Positions 1-7,413 of a stretch of DNA of 36,346 nt are shown one piece after another. Each line of letters starts with the position of its first letter. The first letter of the stretch is position 1. This stretch comes from an uncultured Faecalibacterium sp. (lineage in GTDB: Bacteria > Bacillota > Clostridia > Oscillospirales > Ruminococcaceae), in the NCBI GenBank assembly GCA_934512105.1, contig CAKSWQ010000023.1:1-36346 (forward strand). Direction: 5' to 3'. A program made the translations under genes and the position numbers. Under the pieces are notes generated by a model that had not been told where the DNA came from, ran no database searches, and saw nothing but the letters and a program-made list of their open reading frames with translations.

Positions 1-485
1 GCCAGAGCAAGGCGGTCGGTGCGCTCCTCCAGCATCAGCAGGTACGACCCGGACAGCAGCCGTGCAGCGGCAGCGGCTTTCTGCTGGGGCGTTCCAAATG
101 CAACGCAGTCCGTCAGGTGCTCGATGGTCTCGGTCATGTGGAGAGCTTCCACGAACCGCTCGTCCAGCGGTTCCTCCGGGCTGGCAGGCTTGTAGCACTC
201 CTGCCAGTCGTGCAGCAGGTCAAGATAATCGGTCAGCACCCGCAGGCAGTAAACGATGTCTGCCCGCTGTTCGTCTGTCAGGCCGCGCTTGGCGGTGAGG
301 TCGATGGCATCTCCGTTGGCCCCACAGCCAAAGCAATAATAGTAGGTGTCGTTCAGCTTCATGCTGGGGTCGCTGTCGGAATGGAACGGACAGCACACCA
401 TGCCATGGCGGTCGGGCTCCATGCCGTACATCTCTCCCACCTGCCGAACGGTGATGGCGGACTTGATCTTTTGATATAAACTCAA
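1..485 (-). CDS. CHC2 zinc-finger primase-like protein (3' end beyond window)
   Basis: The minus-strand frame encodes a DnaG-type CHC2 zinc finger near its N terminus: CCPFH, then about 18 residues later YYCFGCG and NGDAIDL. In DnaG this finger binds template DNA. Stand-alone CHC2 proteins of this kind are common replication or transfer accessory genes in Firmicute integrative elements. I chose a TTG start at 485-483 because AAAGGAG lies just upstream and the zinc finger then begins about 30 residues in; no ATG with a binding site precedes it. After the finger the sequence is an acidic helical stretch without a motif I recognise. About 161 codons are visible and the frame is still open at base 1, so the length and any TOPRIM domain cannot be judged. 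It is divergent from the regulator at 936. Confidence 0.75.
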   Translation of the reverse strand, partial: MSLYQKIKSAITVRQVGEMYGMEPDRHGMVCCPFHSDSDPSMKLNDTYYYCFGCGANGDAIDLTAKRGLTDEQRADIVYCLRVLTDYLDLLHDWQECYKPASPEEPLDERFVEALHMTETIEHLTDCVAFGTPQQKAAAAARLLSGSYLLMLEERTDRLAL

Positions 486-880
486 AATTTCTCCTTTGGT
501 CAAAGGTTTTGGCACGGATCATTTTGATCCCTGCCACGTTCAAAGTCACCGGTGTTCCCCAAATGGGAACTTCGGTGAAGCCGGTCTCCCTTGCTGCCTC
601 CCGACAGGAAATCTTTTTGGACTCTGTGTCGGCCCCATGCAGGGCGCTCGCTCCCCCGATGGGAGGTCTTGGCGGTCTGGGCAGTTCGGACGGTCATTCT
701 GTTCTCAAGGTCCTGTTATGAAAGATATTTCAGAGGGCTTTCGCGGGAAGCCCTTAATATGTTCGCTGCTGGGGAGTTACTATGTTTTCTTTCTGTCTAT
801 AGGATAGCACCGCAATGGCCGCTGTGCCGTATATCCAGAAAGCCGGATTTTTGACAAAAAATGCAAAAAATCCAGTCCTC
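486..880. other. Gene-free regulatory stretch with three hairpins
   Basis: I find no convincing gene here; the short open frames lack ribosome binding sites and protein-like composition. It holds three inverted repeats. The first is TGGCA-C-GGATCA-TTT-TGATCC-C-TGCCA at 510-536, just upstream of the primase-like gene. The second is an imperfect CACCGGTGTTCCC / GGGAACTTCGGTG pair at 547-577. The third is AGGGCTT / AAGCCCT at 734-754. None is followed by a clear T-tract, so operators or RNA leader structures fit better than terminators. This is inference. Confidence 0.5.
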
Positions 881-2178: not shown

Positions 2179-3075
2179 ATGTTCAGCATTGCAGGAATTG
2201 ACCTGTTGGAGCAGGAACTTTTGGACCATGAACGCACCCTCCTTGAGATTTTGCTTCAGGACAAGACCACCAAGAAAAACATCATCTGGGCAACCGATGA
2301 TTACGCTGAATTGGGCGAACAATACAGCTTCCAGAAGGAGATTCTGCCGGAACTGGTTACAGGCGAACAGGACAGTCTGATCCAGCCCAGAGTGGAAAAA
2401 GCGCTGGAGCACCAGACCAACCGCACCCGTGACAAAGCAGAGGTGTTTACCCCCAGTTGGATCTGCAACGCACAGAACAATCTGGTGGATGAGCAGTGGT
2501 TTGGCAGGAAGGACGTTTTCAACATCCAGAAGGAGATGTTGTGGAAAGCAACGGCTGACAAAATCACCTTTCCGGATGACCGTCAGCACACATGGCAGAA
2601 ATATGTGGATGCACAGCGGCTGGAAATCTCCTGCGGCGAGGCTCCCTATCTGGTAAGCCGCTACGACACCGTAACGGGCGAAACCATTCCCATTTCCCAG
2701 CGAATTGGCCTGCTGGACCGCAAGCTGCGTGTTGTCAGCGAAAACACGGACACCGAAGAAGAATGGTTCACATGGACAAAGCGGGCGTTCCAGAGCGTGT
2801 ACGGCTTTGAGTATCAGGGCGACAGCCTGCTGCTGGCACGGGAAAACCTGTTTGTGACCTTCGTGGAGGTCTACCGGGAACGTTTTGGTAAACTTCCCTA
2901 CCTGCGGCAGATGAAGGCGATCGCCAACATCATTGCGTGGAACCTCTGGCAGATGGATGGAACAAAGTATGTAGTTCCGGGCAGCTGCAGGGAAAACAAA
3001 ATTGAAATTATCAGCTGGTTCGGCAGTGAGGAACAAATTGACCTCTGCCCCGGATGCAAAAAGATGGCGGCATGA
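2179..3075 (+). CDS. Restriction-modification 'subunit M'-type protein
   Basis: 298 residues from the ATG at 2179. An ATG-less extension upstream lacks a ribosome binding site, while GGGAGG sits 7 bases before this start. The middle carries KAEVFTPSWI, which resembles the motif X region of N6-adenine methylases (F.TP..I). It is followed by LEISCGEAPYLVSRYD, which may be a diverged AdoMet motif I. No NPPY catalytic motif is present. The C-terminal third has an aromatic-rich segment (EEWFTWTKRAFQSVYGFEYQGD) and a terminal CPGC pair. Proteins like this sit beside helicase-methylase genes in Firmicute restriction islands, and the partner here is the gene ending at 6425. I infer that it supplies part of a split methyltransferase; it may instead be a specificity or chaperone subunit. 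Confidence 0.6.
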   Translation: MFSIAGIDLLEQELLDHERTLLEILLQDKTTKKNIIWATDDYAELGEQYSFQKEILPELVTGEQDSLIQPRVEKALEHQTNRTRDKAEVFTPSWICNAQNNLVDEQWFGRKDVFNIQKEMLWKATADKITFPDDRQHTWQKYVDAQRLEISCGEAPYLVSRYDTVTGETIPISQRIGLLDRKLRVVSENTDTEEEWFTWTKRAFQSVYGFEYQGDSLLLARENLFVTFVEVYRERFGKLPYLRQMKAIANIIAWNLWQMDGTKYVVPGSCRENKIEIISWFGSEEQIDLCPGCKKMAA

Positions 3076-3085
3076 GGTTCTAATA

Positions 3086-3114
3086 TTTACAGTGCCTGAC
3101 CAACATGGTACAAT
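3086..3114 (+). promoter_or_regulatory. Promoter of the DpnI-type gene
   Basis: TTTACA at 3086-3091 and TACAAT at 3109-3114 are exactly 17 bp apart, 33 bases before the start codon. The endonuclease gene therefore has its own promoter and need not depend on the upstream gene. Confidence 0.65.
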
Positions 3115-3147
3115 AAAAAGCAATATCCGGTGTGAGGGTTTTTGACT

Positions 3148-3909
3148 ATGAACTTGTGTTTTGACCAATCGCTGGGTCTTGGATATAAAAGCAATTCACA
3201 GAAAATCCGTGTAATGAGCGAGAGCTGGGTCAATGATAACATTTTCTGCCCGGTATGTGGGAGCGCTCGACTTTCAAAACTCGAAAATAACCGCCCTGTT
3301 GCAGACTTTCAGTGCCCATCCTGTGGGGAAATCTTTGAGTTGAAGAGCAAAGATGGAAAAATCGGCAGAAAGATATCGGATGGTGCATACGATACCATGA
3401 TAAGCCGCATAACCAGTATGACAAATCCTGATTTATTGGTTATGCACTACTCCTCTTTACAGGTTGTCGATTTGACAGTCGTTCCCAAATTCTTCTTTAC
3501 GCCTACGGTAATCGAAAAGAGAAAACCGTTATCGCCGACTGCCAGACGTGCCGGATGGGTCGGTTGCAATATTTTATATGGAGATATTCCAGAACAAGGG
3601 CGAATCCCTATTATTGAAAACCAAAATTATCGAAGTACGGATTGTATCGTACAAGACTATGCGAGAATTAAACGTCTACAAACGGAGTCTATTGAAAAGC
3701 GAGGATGGCTGTTTGATGTGCTCAACTGTGTGAATGACATCCCTACGAAAGATTTTCACCTAAAAGATATTTATGTATTTGCAGATAAACTGAAGCATCA
3801 GCATCCCGACAACCAAAACATCGAAGCGAAGATTCGTCAACAACTGCAATTTCTTCGGGATAAAGGAATGATTGAATTTCTGGAACGAGGTCATTACCGT
3901 AAGATATAG
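3148..3909 (+). CDS. dpnI: DpnI-type methyl-directed restriction endonuclease
   Basis: 253 residues, against 254 in pneumococcal DpnI, and collinear with it from end to end. The N-terminal catalytic domain has D53 (RPVADF), E64 and K66 (EIFELKSK), matching the PD-(D/E)xK residues of DpnI. The zinc ligands appear as C34/C37 and C56/C59. The segment TARRAGWVGCN and the C-terminal winged helix (KIRQQLQFLRDKGMIEF...GHYRKI) also match the family. DpnI cuts GATC only when its adenine is methylated. I chose ATG 3148 over TTG 3142 because it reproduces the DpnI N terminus exactly. The gene is clearly more AT-rich than its neighbours and has its own promoter, pointing to separate acquisition. It occupies the place where the first part of the following helicase gene should be. 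Family assignment is firm; GATC specificity is inferred. Confidence 0.93.
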   Translation: MNLCFDQSLGLGYKSNSQKIRVMSESWVNDNIFCPVCGSARLSKLENNRPVADFQCPSCGEIFELKSKDGKIGRKISDGAYDTMISRITSMTNPDLLVMHYSSLQVVDLTVVPKFFFTPTVIEKRKPLSPTARRAGWVGCNILYGDIPEQGRIPIIENQNYRSTDCIVQDYARIKRLQTESIEKRGWLFDVLNCVNDIPTKDFHLKDIYVFADKLKHQHPDNQNIEAKIRQQLQFLRDKGMIEFLERGHYRKI

Positions 3910-4001
3910 CGAGGATTCTTTGCTTTCTGACACTGGTAAAACAGGTCATCAAGGCGAACCGCTATACCATTACCATTTCCTGCGGCAAGCTGACCACCGG
4001 C

Positions 4002-6425
4002 GTGACGGTGCCGGAGTGGACGGCTGTGATGATGCTGACCGGGTCGGCAAGCACGGCTGCGTCCGGCTATATGCAGACCATCTTCCGGGTGCAGTCGGCA
4101 GGGGTGCTGGACGGCAAACAGAAGGAACGCTGCTACGTCTTTGACTTTGCCCCGGACCGTGCCCTAAACGTGATTTCTGAGGTCAACCGCATCACCAAGC
4201 GGGGCCGGACCAATGAGGAGCAGAACCGGGTGGCACTGGGCGAGTTTTTGAACTTCTGCCCGGTGATTGCGGTGGACGGCACCCAGATGACGGCATACAG
4301 CGTCTCCAGAATGATGCAGCAGATCAAGAAATTGACGGTGGACAAGGCCATCAAGAGCGGCTTTGACGATGAATCGGTTTACAAGCAAGACACCGGCATC
4401 GTTATGGACGAGGACGATGTGCAGCTGTTCCATACCCTGTCGGACAAGCTCAGCGAGCAGAAAGCAGCCAAAAAGGAAACCAAAGTCCACATCAACCATC
4501 AGGGGCTGACCAACGAGGAATACGACAAGGCTGGTAAAATCTCCAGCAGACCCAAGCGGGAGCGAACCAAAAAGGACGAAGACCTGCTCAAAAAGGTACA
4601 GGAGCAAAAGAAAGAGCGAGAGAAGGTCATTCGACTGTTGCGAAATATCTCCATTAGGCTTCCTTTGCTGATTTATGGTGCTAAGGTTGACTTGACCGAG
4701 AGCATCAAGATGGCCGACTTCATCACGCTGGTGGATGAGGAATCGTGGCAGGAGTTCATGCCCAAAACGGTGGATAAGCCGCTGTTCCGCAAATTGCTGA
4801 AATATTATGATGAAGATGTTGTCATTGGGGCAGGTCTGCGCATCCGCCGCATGGCAAAGGCTGCGGACGAGCTGCCGCCTACCGAGCGTGTGAAGCGCAT
4901 TGCTGAGATTTTCAGTCACTTCCGCAATCCTGACAAGGAAACCGTTCTGACCCCGTGGCGGGTGGTGAACCTTCATCTGAGCAACATGGTGGGCGGCTAC
5001 TGCTTCCTCAACGAGCAGTTTGACCCGCAGGATGTTCTGGAGGAGCCCCGTCTGGTGGATCAGGGGCAGGTCACCGAGGACATCTTCCTCGACCCGGAGG
5101 CACGGATTCTGGAAATGAACTCCAAATCCGGCTTGTATCCCCTGTATATGGCATACAGCCTGTACGCCATGAAGCTGCCCGGCCCGGAGGACAAGCTGCC
5201 GCTGGAGCAGACACAGGTTCTCTGGCAGGAAACCGTGGAGCAGCAGATCTTTGTTCTGTGCAAGACCCGGATGGCAGAAAGCATCACCCGGCGGACGCTG
5301 GTGGGTTATCAGGATTGGACGGTCAACACCACCTACATTCCGCACCTGCTGGAACGGATGGAAAAAGACCCGCAGCGTCTGGCAAAGAAGCTGCAGCGAA
5401 CCGATACATGGGGAAAGGAGGGACAGCCCATGAAATTTGATGCCATTGTGGGCAATCCGCCGTATCAGGAGGATACAGGTGGCGGCAGCGCAGCCAATGT
5501 TGCGGCAAAGCAGGCACGCCCGGTTTATAACCTGTTTGTGGATCAGGCAAAAACCATGCAGCCCCACTATATCTCTATGATTATGCCGGCACGCTGGTAT
5601 GCTGGCGGCATCGGACTGAACGATTTCCGCAATGAGATGCTGAACGATCCGCACCTGATCAGGCTGACGGATTTTGTGAACTCCAAGGACTGCTTCAGTA
5701 CCGTGGATATTGCAGGCGGCATCTGCTATTTCCTGTGGGATCGGGACAAGGAGGAGGTCTGCGAGGTTACAAACGTCAGCGGTCTGGAACGCCATACCAT
5801 GCGGCGCAATCTCAATGAATTTGGGGAGATCTTCATTCGGTCGAATGAATCGCTCTCCATCATCCATAAGGTTCTGAGCCATTCAGAACACTTCCTGACC
5901 GATCGGGTGCAGCCCATTGATGCCTTTGGTTTCCCCTCTGCGGCTCGTGGTGAGAAAGAGCCCTTTGACGGTTGCATTTCCCTTATTCACAGCCAAGGCA
6001 CCGGCTATATTAAGAGAAGCGATGTCAAGAAGAACGCAGAGCTGATCGACAAGTACAAGGCAACGATCTCCATTCTGGTTCCCTGCAATGGTGAGGTTGG
6101 CATTGACCCGTCCAAGGGTTATAAGGCCATCACGACACCCCGGATTGAGGTTCCGGGAGAAGTGAACACCTTCTCCTATCTGGTTCTGGGCGCATTCGAT
6201 ACCGAAGCAGAAATCAAGAACTACAAGCAGTATCTGATGTGTAAGTTTACTCGCTTCATGTTGCGCTTGACCTATTCTTCTATGCACATTGCAAGAGCAA
6301 ACTTTGTCTTTGTGCCCGACCAGGATTTTACAGAAGAATGGACGGACGAAAAACTGTACAAGAAGTACGAGCTGACAGAAGACGAGATTGCGTTTGTTGA
6401 GAGTACGATTAGAGTGATGGAGTGA
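4002..6425 (+). CDS. Helicase-methylase, N-terminally truncated (helicase C-terminal region plus Eco57I-type methylase)
   Basis: The frame is open from 3903, right at the end of dpnI, and GTG 4002 is the first usable start, though it has no clear ribosome binding site. The visible protein begins inside a superfamily-2 helicase: ISCGKLTTGVTVPEW..ML and then GYMQTIFRVQS, resembling motifs V and VI. The Walker A and DEAD-box motifs are absent. A charged linker follows (about 180-210), then a helical region. From residue 477 (MKFDAIVGNPPY) comes an Eco57I-type N6-adenine methylase with the NPPY catalytic motif, continuing to about 807. Intact relatives are usually far longer and carry the whole helicase. 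Without motifs I-III it cannot hydrolyse ATP, so translocation and restriction are probably lost while methylation could persist. An internal ribosome binding site at 5414 may express the methylase alone. Confidence 0.7.
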   Translation: MTVPEWTAVMMLTGSASTAASGYMQTIFRVQSAGVLDGKQKERCYVFDFAPDRALNVISEVNRITKRGRTNEEQNRVALGEFLNFCPVIAVDGTQMTAYSVSRMMQQIKKLTVDKAIKSGFDDESVYKQDTGIVMDEDDVQLFHTLSDKLSEQKAAKKETKVHINHQGLTNEEYDKAGKISSRPKRERTKKDEDLLKKVQEQKKEREKVIRLLRNISIRLPLLIYGAKVDLTESIKMADFITLVDEESWQEFMPKTVDKPLFRKLLKYYDEDVVIGAGLRIRRMAKAADELPPTERVKRIAEIFSHFRNPDKETVLTPWRVVNLHLSNMVGGYCFLNEQFDPQDVLEEPRLVDQGQVTEDIFLDPEARILEMNSKSGLYPLYMAYSLYAMKLPGPEDKLPLEQTQVLWQETVEQQIFVLCKTRMAESITRRTLVGYQDWTVNTTYIPHLLERMEKDPQRLAKKLQRTDTWGKEGQPMKFDAIVGNPPYQEDTGGGSAANVAAKQARPVYNLFVDQAKTMQPHYISMIMPARWYAGGIGLNDFRNEMLNDPHLIRLTDFVNSKDCFSTVDIAGGICYFLWDRDKEEVCEVTNVSGLERHTMRRNLNEFGEIFIRSNESLSIIHKVLSHSEHFLTDRVQPIDAFGFPSAARGEKEPFDGCISLIHSQGTGYIKRSDVKKNAELIDKYKATISILVPCNGEVGIDPSKGYKAITTPRIEVPGEVNTFSYLVLGAFDTEAEIKNYKQYLMCKFTRFMLRLTYSSMHIARANFVFVPDQDFTEEWTDEKLYKKYELTEDEIAFVESTIRVME
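5414..5432 (+). promoter_or_regulatory. Internal ribosome binding site and start before the NPPY domain
   Basis: AAAGGAGGG (5414-5422) lies 7 bases before an in-frame ATG at 5430. Starting there gives a 331-residue protein beginning MKFDAIVGNPPY, the first residues of the methylase motif IV block. The spacing is ideal, but the purines also encode GKEG in the longer protein, so chance is possible. Confidence 0.4.
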
Positions 6426-6627: not shown

Positions 6628-7413
6628 ATGACCGATTATCAAAAGTTAGAAGCGATCTATAATGAAATTGATACATTGATTGAAAAACGTGTTATGGCTG
6701 AATCCCCTGAATTTGAATCGTGGCATTCAAGAGCTGAACGATTTCTGGTAAATCGTTTTGGACGTGACAGCTATGAGGTAACGGATTTTTCCAATACGTT
6801 GTTTTCACCAACTATGTATGCCATCGGCATGGACAATGTTCTCATAAGAGTCTGTTGCGACGGATTGAAAAAGACAAAAGGTGTTTTCAAGGACTATCTG
6901 ATAGAAATCAAGGAAGAAATGTCAGAAAAAGACGAGAAACTGTCGGAAGATGTACATACGGGTTCGAGCTATCAAAATAACAAAGTATTTGTTGTTCATG
7001 GGCATGATGAAGCACTTAAAGAAAAAGTGGCAAGACTTCTTGAAAAACAAGGGCTTGAAGCAATTATCTTGAGTGAACAGGCTAATAAGGGCAAGACGAT
7101 TATTGAGAAGTTTGAAGAAAATAGTGATGTGGGTGCTGCAATTTGCCTGTTTACTGGTGATGATATTGGAAAAGAAAAAAGTGAAGCCGTAGAGAAGCAG
7201 CGCGCACGACAGAATGTCGTATATGAAGCGGGTTATTTTATGGGAAAACTGGGGCGGGAGAGAGTTATAATGTTAGTAGATGAAGGTATAGAACTTCCGT
7301 CCGATTTACAAGGGGTTGTTTACACAGATTCAGAAAGTTGGAAAACTGAGGTTTTACAAGAATTACAAAGCATTGGCTATGCAATCGACTTTAATAAACT
7401 TTTCAAAAGATGA
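6628..7413 (+). CDS. TIR-like nucleotide-binding effector (PF10137 type)
   Basis: 261 residues. Residues 1-110 are a helical N-terminal region without a motif I recognise. Residues about 118-255 form a TIR-like domain: NKVFVVHGHDEALKEKVARLLE, then ILSEQANKGKTIIEKFEE (which likely holds the catalytic Glu), AAICLFTGDD, the family hallmark RARQNVVYEAGYFMGKLGRERVIML and LPSDLQGVVYTD. This family supplies NAD-degrading effectors of Pycsar (PycTIR) and CBASS (Cap12) systems and also occurs alone. No cyclase gene is present, so the trigger is unknown. AGGAGG lies 7 to 8 bases before the ATG. The gene is AT-rich compared with flanking genes, like dpnI, and sits in the same defence cargo. Domain assignment is confident; NADase activity is inferred. 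Confidence 0.85.
   Translation: MTDYQKLEAIYNEIDTLIEKRVMAESPEFESWHSRAERFLVNRFGRDSYEVTDFSNTLFSPTMYAIGMDNVLIRVCCDGLKKTKGVFKDYLIEIKEEMSEKDEKLSEDVHTGSSYQNNKVFVVHGHDEALKEKVARLLEKQGLEAIILSEQANKGKTIIEKFEENSDVGAAICLFTGDDIGKEKSEAVEKQRARQNVVYEAGYFMGKLGRERVIMLVDEGIELPSDLQGVVYTDSESWKTEVLQELQSIGYAIDFNKLFKR

Follow-up and report, generated by a model that had tools for sequence, protein, structure and literature searches.

A dpnI gene in place of the front half of a helicase-methylase gene in a Faecalibacterium restriction-modification locus

The window analysed here is a 36,346-nt stretch of DNA from an uncultured Faecalibacterium sp., and the locus under study occupies about 2179-6425 of its forward (+) strand, in the order M subunit gene, dpnI, ORF2. 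The M gene is a truncated gene of a restriction-modification (R-M) system, dpnI encodes a predicted methyl-directed endonuclease, and ORF2 is the remnant of a helicase-methylase gene. A scan of genome contigs gave five loci related to that of the window. F. hattorii APC922/41-1 (L001) and genome G005 (L007/L008) carry dpnI alleles, F. longum CLA-AA-H243 (L002) and F. prausnitzii CNCM I 4541 (L005) carry intact alleles, and L003 and L004 are distant relatives. Occurrence was surveyed in 31 genomes of the genus, one per species, and in a sample of 396 genomes of the family.

The dpnI gene (3148-3909, +) encodes a protein of 253 amino acids (aa) with a catalytic and a winged-helix domain, matching Pfam DpnI (PF06044, 1.5e-74) and DpnI_C (PF17726, 7.5e-34) as well as the PADLOC model mREase_II (1.6e-94). 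It aligns over its whole length with R.DpnI of the PDB (4esj/4kyw, 1.2e-70). All three active-site residues, D53, E64 and K66, are present, and W137 and G139 align to W138 and G140, the residues named for the methyl pocket of DpnI (PMC4117772), indicating that this pocket is kept. The GC content of the gene is 41.6%, against 52.2% in M and 53.5% in ORF2, and the difference is larger at third codon positions (42% versus 67-69% in the neighbouring genes). The gene is constrained, with a ratio of nonsynonymous to synonymous divergence (dN/dS) of 0.055-0.091 across three allele pairs. An earlier note on this DNA had described a dpnI homologue of lower GC content with its own promoter; the homologue and its composition are borne out by these searches, while the promoter stands in part. 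A promoter-like site, TTTACA-17-TACAAT, lies at 3086-3114 (+) upstream of dpnI. Sites of this type occur at chance level in the scan (2 found, 2.0 expected), yet both hexamers and the 17-bp spacer are preserved in all three dpnI alleles seen. NCBIfam offered no useful name for the product of either dpnI or M.

The M gene spans 2179-3075 (+; the open reading frame is listed from 2107) and matches PADLOC MTase_II (6.4e-119). Its product follows the intact protein through residues 1-294, with a CGEAP motif at residue 152, and then ends in KMAA and a stop codon, so that the subunit is incomplete at residue 294 of 332. The lost tail is well conserved: in an alignment of 44 sequences W311 is invariant and H301, G303, Y305, D310 and R312 are at least 90% conserved. 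An AlphaFold2 model gives residues 291-320 a predicted local distance difference test score of ~90, with strands at 307-310 and 315-318; the lost tail is thus predicted to be folded. The L008 M gene is damaged further, by a frameshift at the CGEAP motif and an internal deletion, while L008 dpnI is intact. Comparison of the M sequence with the PDB gave a single irrelevant weak match, and with the model Foldseek found nothing at E ≤0.001 (the best was BrxX, at 0.56). Pfam showed no D12/Dam match in M or ORF2. Among clustered sequences of a protein collection, P0258 (1768 members), P0259 and P0282 are M proteins that all end just past the residues NLF; they are possibly a second common disrupted allele.

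ORF2 (3927-6425, +) corresponds to residues 531-1362 of the intact helicase-methylase. It includes the motif V/VI region of the helicase, a linker, an Eco57I-type methylase part with methylase motif IV (NPPY) and a target-recognition part. Pfam recognises a single domain in it, the Eco57I methylase. SF2 (superfamily 2) helicases are commonly described by numbered motifs, here I-III, V and VI. Both motifs I-III and the N-terminal T5orf172/GIY-YIG domain are absent from the window. The frame is open from 3903, so that the dpnI stop codon at 3907-3909 falls within it, as the earlier note had observed; the listed start is a GTG at 4002 with a poor Shine-Dalgarno (SD) match, and the frame ends at 6425.

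The intact alleles fix the borders of the replacement. In L002 and L005 the same M gene is present, and its end is overlapped by an uninterrupted helicase-methylase gene of 1362 and 1365 aa, respectively, with ResIII and Eco57I domains. Homology between the window and L002 runs to 3061 (M residue 294) and resumes at 3927 (helicase residue 531), both positions being uncertain by a few bases owing to chance matches in the alignment. L002 3430-5121 (1692 bp) is absent from the window, which has 865 bp instead (3062-3926, +); by blastn against L002, and also against L001, L002, L005 and L007, this segment has no counterpart in intact alleles. Lost from the window are the M tail, the ribosome-binding site of the helicase gene, the GIY-YIG-like N-terminus and helicase motifs I-III. 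A tblastn search of the whole window with the intact front half (residues 1-555) returned only residues 521-555 at a meaningful E-value, and the missing front was not found elsewhere in the whole genomes of G001 and G005, two other dpnI-bearing strains. The replacement of the helicase front by dpnI is therefore real and common to several genomes. The earlier note had proposed that dpnI was swapped in for the restriction front, with motifs I-III missing, and had suggested a search for intact loci with the same M gene. Those loci exist and bear it out, although the replaced segment also reaches upstream into the M gene, which is damaged as well.

The note had also raised the objection that the helicase gene might naturally start at this point, or that its front might lie nearby. 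The full-length genes in L002 and L005, and the complete helicase-methylases of 1337-1338 aa in the distant L003 and L004 (34% identity, with M downstream), carry the whole front. The same arrangement as in the window occurs in two other genomes, in one of them on a 2.8-Mb contig. A natural start, or a locus created by misassembly, is practically excluded.

An inspection of the intact relatives indicated how the old system was probably built. The N-terminal T5orf172 (GIY-YIG-type) domain scores above the cut-off in L003 and L004 (9.6e-7 and 1e-8), and in L002 it reaches 19.5 bits, just under the 20-bit cut-off; the domain is a putative nuclease. The intact helicase-methylase has no sequence relative in the PDB. 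Two split relatives from the same family of genomes lack dpnI and have a complete helicase gene. In L095 the CGEAP and NPPY motifs sit in one protein of 647 aa beside a helicase of 1102 aa, while in L096 CGEAP and an NPPY-type motif (here NPAY) are found in separate proteins of 320 and 342 aa, with a helicase of 1098 aa. Because the two motifs are paired in L095 and L096, the CGEAP and NPPY parts of the window system appear to belong together, and its methylase would consist of M and the end of ORF2, M being the putative supplier of the cofactor motif and ORF2 contributing NPPY and the recognition part. A related locus, L097 2582-8830, has tandem M-type genes, of 335 and 316 aa and each containing CGEAP, followed by a helicase-methylase of 1345 aa. 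The recognition part behind NPPY is swapped between L002 (6664-7533) and L005 (9468-10340), which are otherwise similar alleles, and further types of this part are seen in P0170, P0173, P0192 and P0240.

The intact allele resembles the Type ISP enzymes LlaGI and LlaBIII, in which nuclease, helicase, methylase and recognition part form a single chain (PMC4666363), in that it joins a nuclease-like N-terminus, an SF2 helicase, a methylase and a recognition part. It differs from them in having a T5orf172/GIY-YIG-like rather than an Mrr N-terminus and a separate M subunit. The window differs further, in that both the N-terminus and helicase motifs I-III are gone.

The three dpnI alleles share the left joint, at the same place and with the same foreign sequence beside it. 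L001 lacks L002 3430-4646, then has 37 bp of homology and then a second deletion of ~154 bp (140 bp unmatched, with 14 bp overlapping at the joint). L008 has both L001 deletions and, in addition, an in-frame loss of ~717 bp (702 bp unmatched and 15 bp of overlap). L001 and L008 have an identical right joint, from which that of the window differs; the right edge of the window segment (3910-3926, +) has no match longer than 12 bp among the 103 sequences compared. Scans of viral contigs for relatives of ORF2, dpnI and the helicase front were negative, and the left-joint sequence pattern had no match in them. No relative of the locus was found in plasmid DNA; tblastn with dpnI gave six plasmid records, all below 60% identity, and three phage records, all partial.

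These borders would be explained by a single entry. In the ancestor of at least three Faecalibacterium-type alleles, a small cassette carrying dpnI and a promoter of its own would have entered a two-gene R-M locus, taking the place of the M-gene end, the GIY-YIG-like domain and helicase motifs I-III. The remnant would then have shrunk by deletions that differ among lineages, and would have recombined with intact alleles. It is also conceivable that dpnI was acquired twice, the window gene having been exchanged for the L001/L008 gene, or gained apart from it, in the same slot. For the window and L001, synonymous divergence (dS) is 0.43 in dpnI and 0.13 in M; the L001-L008 pair has a dpnI dS of 0.12. 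The C-terminal end of dpnI reads RKI in the window and RKLL in L001/L008, and the right joints differ. A common left joint, foreign sequence and promoter would hardly be expected from two independent events, and two acquisitions are very unlikely; a later allelic exchange inside the cassette may have taken place. The excess of dpnI dS over M dS nevertheless shows that a single event with plain descent is too simple an account: either the cassette is old and its flanks have been homogenised, or the cassette itself has been exchanged. The ORF2 proteins of L001 and L002 are 98% alike and have the same recognition part. The dS of ORF2 is 0.10 between L001 and the intact L002 and 0.27 between L001 and the window, and identity along ORF2 is mosaic, at 84-99%. 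Recombination with intact alleles therefore blurs the timing.

The anti-SD duplex at the helicase-gene start is -12.0 kcal/mol in L002 and -11.2 kcal/mol in L005. At the window GTG 4002 it is -1.7, and in L001 and L008 -1.9, against a local background mean of -3.3 kcal/mol. Since M is truncated and the second gene lacks its start signal, methylation has most likely been lost. On this reading DpnI would now be a stand-alone nuclease cutting incoming Gm6ATC DNA, harmless to its host because host GATC would be unmethylated, and the old R-M system would no longer restrict and most probably no longer methylate. We regard a stand-alone methyl-directed nuclease beside a disabled R-M remnant as the best reading, and a probable one. 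The earlier note had instead assumed that the methylase half stayed on as a working partner and that the two specificities had to differ. The cut in M, the removed start signal and the L008 frameshift speak against such a partner, and the host of dpnI needs only unmethylated GATC, so that no hybrid need be assumed.

Several observations weigh against a disabled remnant. Both methylase motifs, CGEAP and NPPY, are kept in the window and in L001. The dN/dS of ORF2 is 0.059 (versus L001) and 0.065 (versus L002), like that of intact alleles, and the frame holds no stop codon, whereas ~4.7 stops are expected to arise for every 0.05 of neutral divergence. L008 ORF2 gives 0.117-0.164 against the three others, and its relaxation is not significant (singletons 5 nonsynonymous/14 synonymous versus 18/83, p 0.36). 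For M, dN/dS between the window and L001 is 0.086. The amino-acid excess in the window M is weak (5 nonsynonymous/13 synonymous changes versus 0/17 in the other three, p 0.045), and L001 M, also from a dpnI allele, shows none. These dN/dS values argue against simple decay, although, divergence along ORF2 being mosaic, its values may date from before the replacement or reflect exchange with intact alleles.

The open, constrained frame and the two kept motifs are also what a working hybrid would show, in which the truncated M and ORF2 act on a motif other than Gm6ATC, forming an orphan or self-marking methylase, and DpnI restricts DNA that carries Gm6ATC. Starts at 4026-4032 have an anti-SD duplex of -6.9 kcal/mol, similar to the -6.1 of the dpnI start, and weak translation of ORF2 is therefore possible. 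Four metagenome clusters (P0173, P0189, P0196 and P0235) start exactly at the L001-type joint and have a different recognition domain, as if such alleles kept exchanging specificity; recombination with intact alleles may account for this exchange as well. Set against a hybrid are the missing M tail and helicase start signal, the broken M gene of L008 and the behaviour of short relatives of ORF2. Among the matches listed (7999 scored), at least 39 of 120 ORF2 relatives are 682-708 aa long, at 44% coverage, and all seven that were fetched (P0127, P0130, P0134, P0138, P0139, P0152 and P0164) lack the conserved SKSGLYP stretch. Judged from these forms, long open frames appear to outlive function in the family, and we rejected the open frame of ORF2 as proof of an active methylase. 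A working hybrid is thus unlikely. In P0121 and P0185, deletions have joined M to the helicase part in one protein.

dpnI was found in two of the 31 genus genomes, both times at the present locus. The helicase-methylase is matched in 13 of the 31; G001, G002, G003 and G005 carry the locus at 83-100% identity and the rest reach at most 49%. Of the 396 family genomes, 20 have a dpnI match, partial in some, and 13 have an M match. The surroundings of dpnI in eight of the other 18 family genomes, read from lists of open reading frames, showed the M-dpnI-methylase order in none, and among those eight an M match occurs in G393 alone, where it is partial and lies on a different contig. P0001 and P0002 are 96% and 95% identical to the window dpnI, and P0002 comprises 2041 member sequences; the dpnI cassette is common in metagenomes.

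D12 (Dam-type) methylases occur in seven of the 31 genus genomes and in neither of the dpnI-bearing G001 and G005, a sample of two that proves nothing. PF01555 methylases are present in all four genomes searched, which counts against the preferred reading in that absence of GATC methylation is not proven. The D12 methylase of G002 was considered as a sign of GATC methylation in an intact strain and rejected, as it adjoins an EcoRV-family nuclease. In F. longum, which has an intact allele, L077 1208-3003 holds an EcoRV-family nuclease (6.1e-118) next to a D12 methylase.

Genes like dpnI also lie beside methylase genes in G354 and G178 (L069 5500-8300 and L071 5378-6843, minus strand). The G354 gene, ~65% identical to that of the window, is preceded by a DpnM-like D12 methylase gene (PDB 2dpm, 3.2e-53), apparently truncated at its end, and precedes a PF01555 methylase gene that has no start of its own; in G178 the gene directly behind dpnI encodes a PF01555 methylase of 232 aa. 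The placement of dpnI next to damaged methylase genes may recur.

A TIR-domain protein gene lies behind the remnant in the window (6628-7413) and in L008 (12574-13359), with matches to CAP12-PCTIR (2.6e-40) and PADLOC PDC-S35 (2.5e-95). The slot behind the locus is a variable cargo site, holding the TIR gene in the window and G005, DUF3800 in L001 and DUF2971 in L002. A CHC2 zinc-finger primase fragment is found at 3-515 (minus strand) of the window, and upstream open reading frames in L001 (960-4244) and L008 (6873-8429) look by eye like mobilisation, primase and serine recombinase genes. The island around the locus may be mobile.

Among the papers listed by literature searches, none describes an M-dpnI-methylase arrangement in its title or in the abstract shown. 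The nearest precedent is drg, the "dam replacing gene" of Neisseria, a low-GC relative of DpnI inserted in dam, which is truncated as a result in some strains and intact in others (PMC4269198). The likeness extends to a low-GC dpnI-type gene in a methylation locus, a truncated methylase gene and an intact version elsewhere. The difference is that drg truncates dam, whose product it would cut, whereas the window has lost the M tail, together with the nuclease-like and helicase front, from an R-M system with no Dam-type match in Pfam. A pneumococcal strain carries either DpnI, which cuts methylated DNA, or DpnII, which cuts unmethylated DNA (PMC3573125). In pneumococci one complete system takes the place of the other, whereas in the window portions of two genes have given way to dpnI and their fragments persist. 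A helicase-methylase locus taken over by dpnI is a new variation on both precedents.

The base-level borders show how a methyl-directed nuclease can take over an R-M locus: with a single cassette, the restriction gene loses its front, the modification subunit its end, and the start signal lying between the two disappears. Together with Neisseria drg and the G354 locus, the window suggests that methylation loci are a recurrent landing site for dpnI cassettes. It is quite unlikely that the M fragment and ORF2 methylate a non-GATC motif and that dpnI and the nuclease-helicase front are interchangeable effectors behind one methylase that swaps its recognition domains; were this so, the locus would alternate its target, cutting unmethylated foreign DNA in one state and methylated foreign DNA in the other. 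As intact and dpnI alleles coexist within one genus, the take-over can be tested by methylome comparison.

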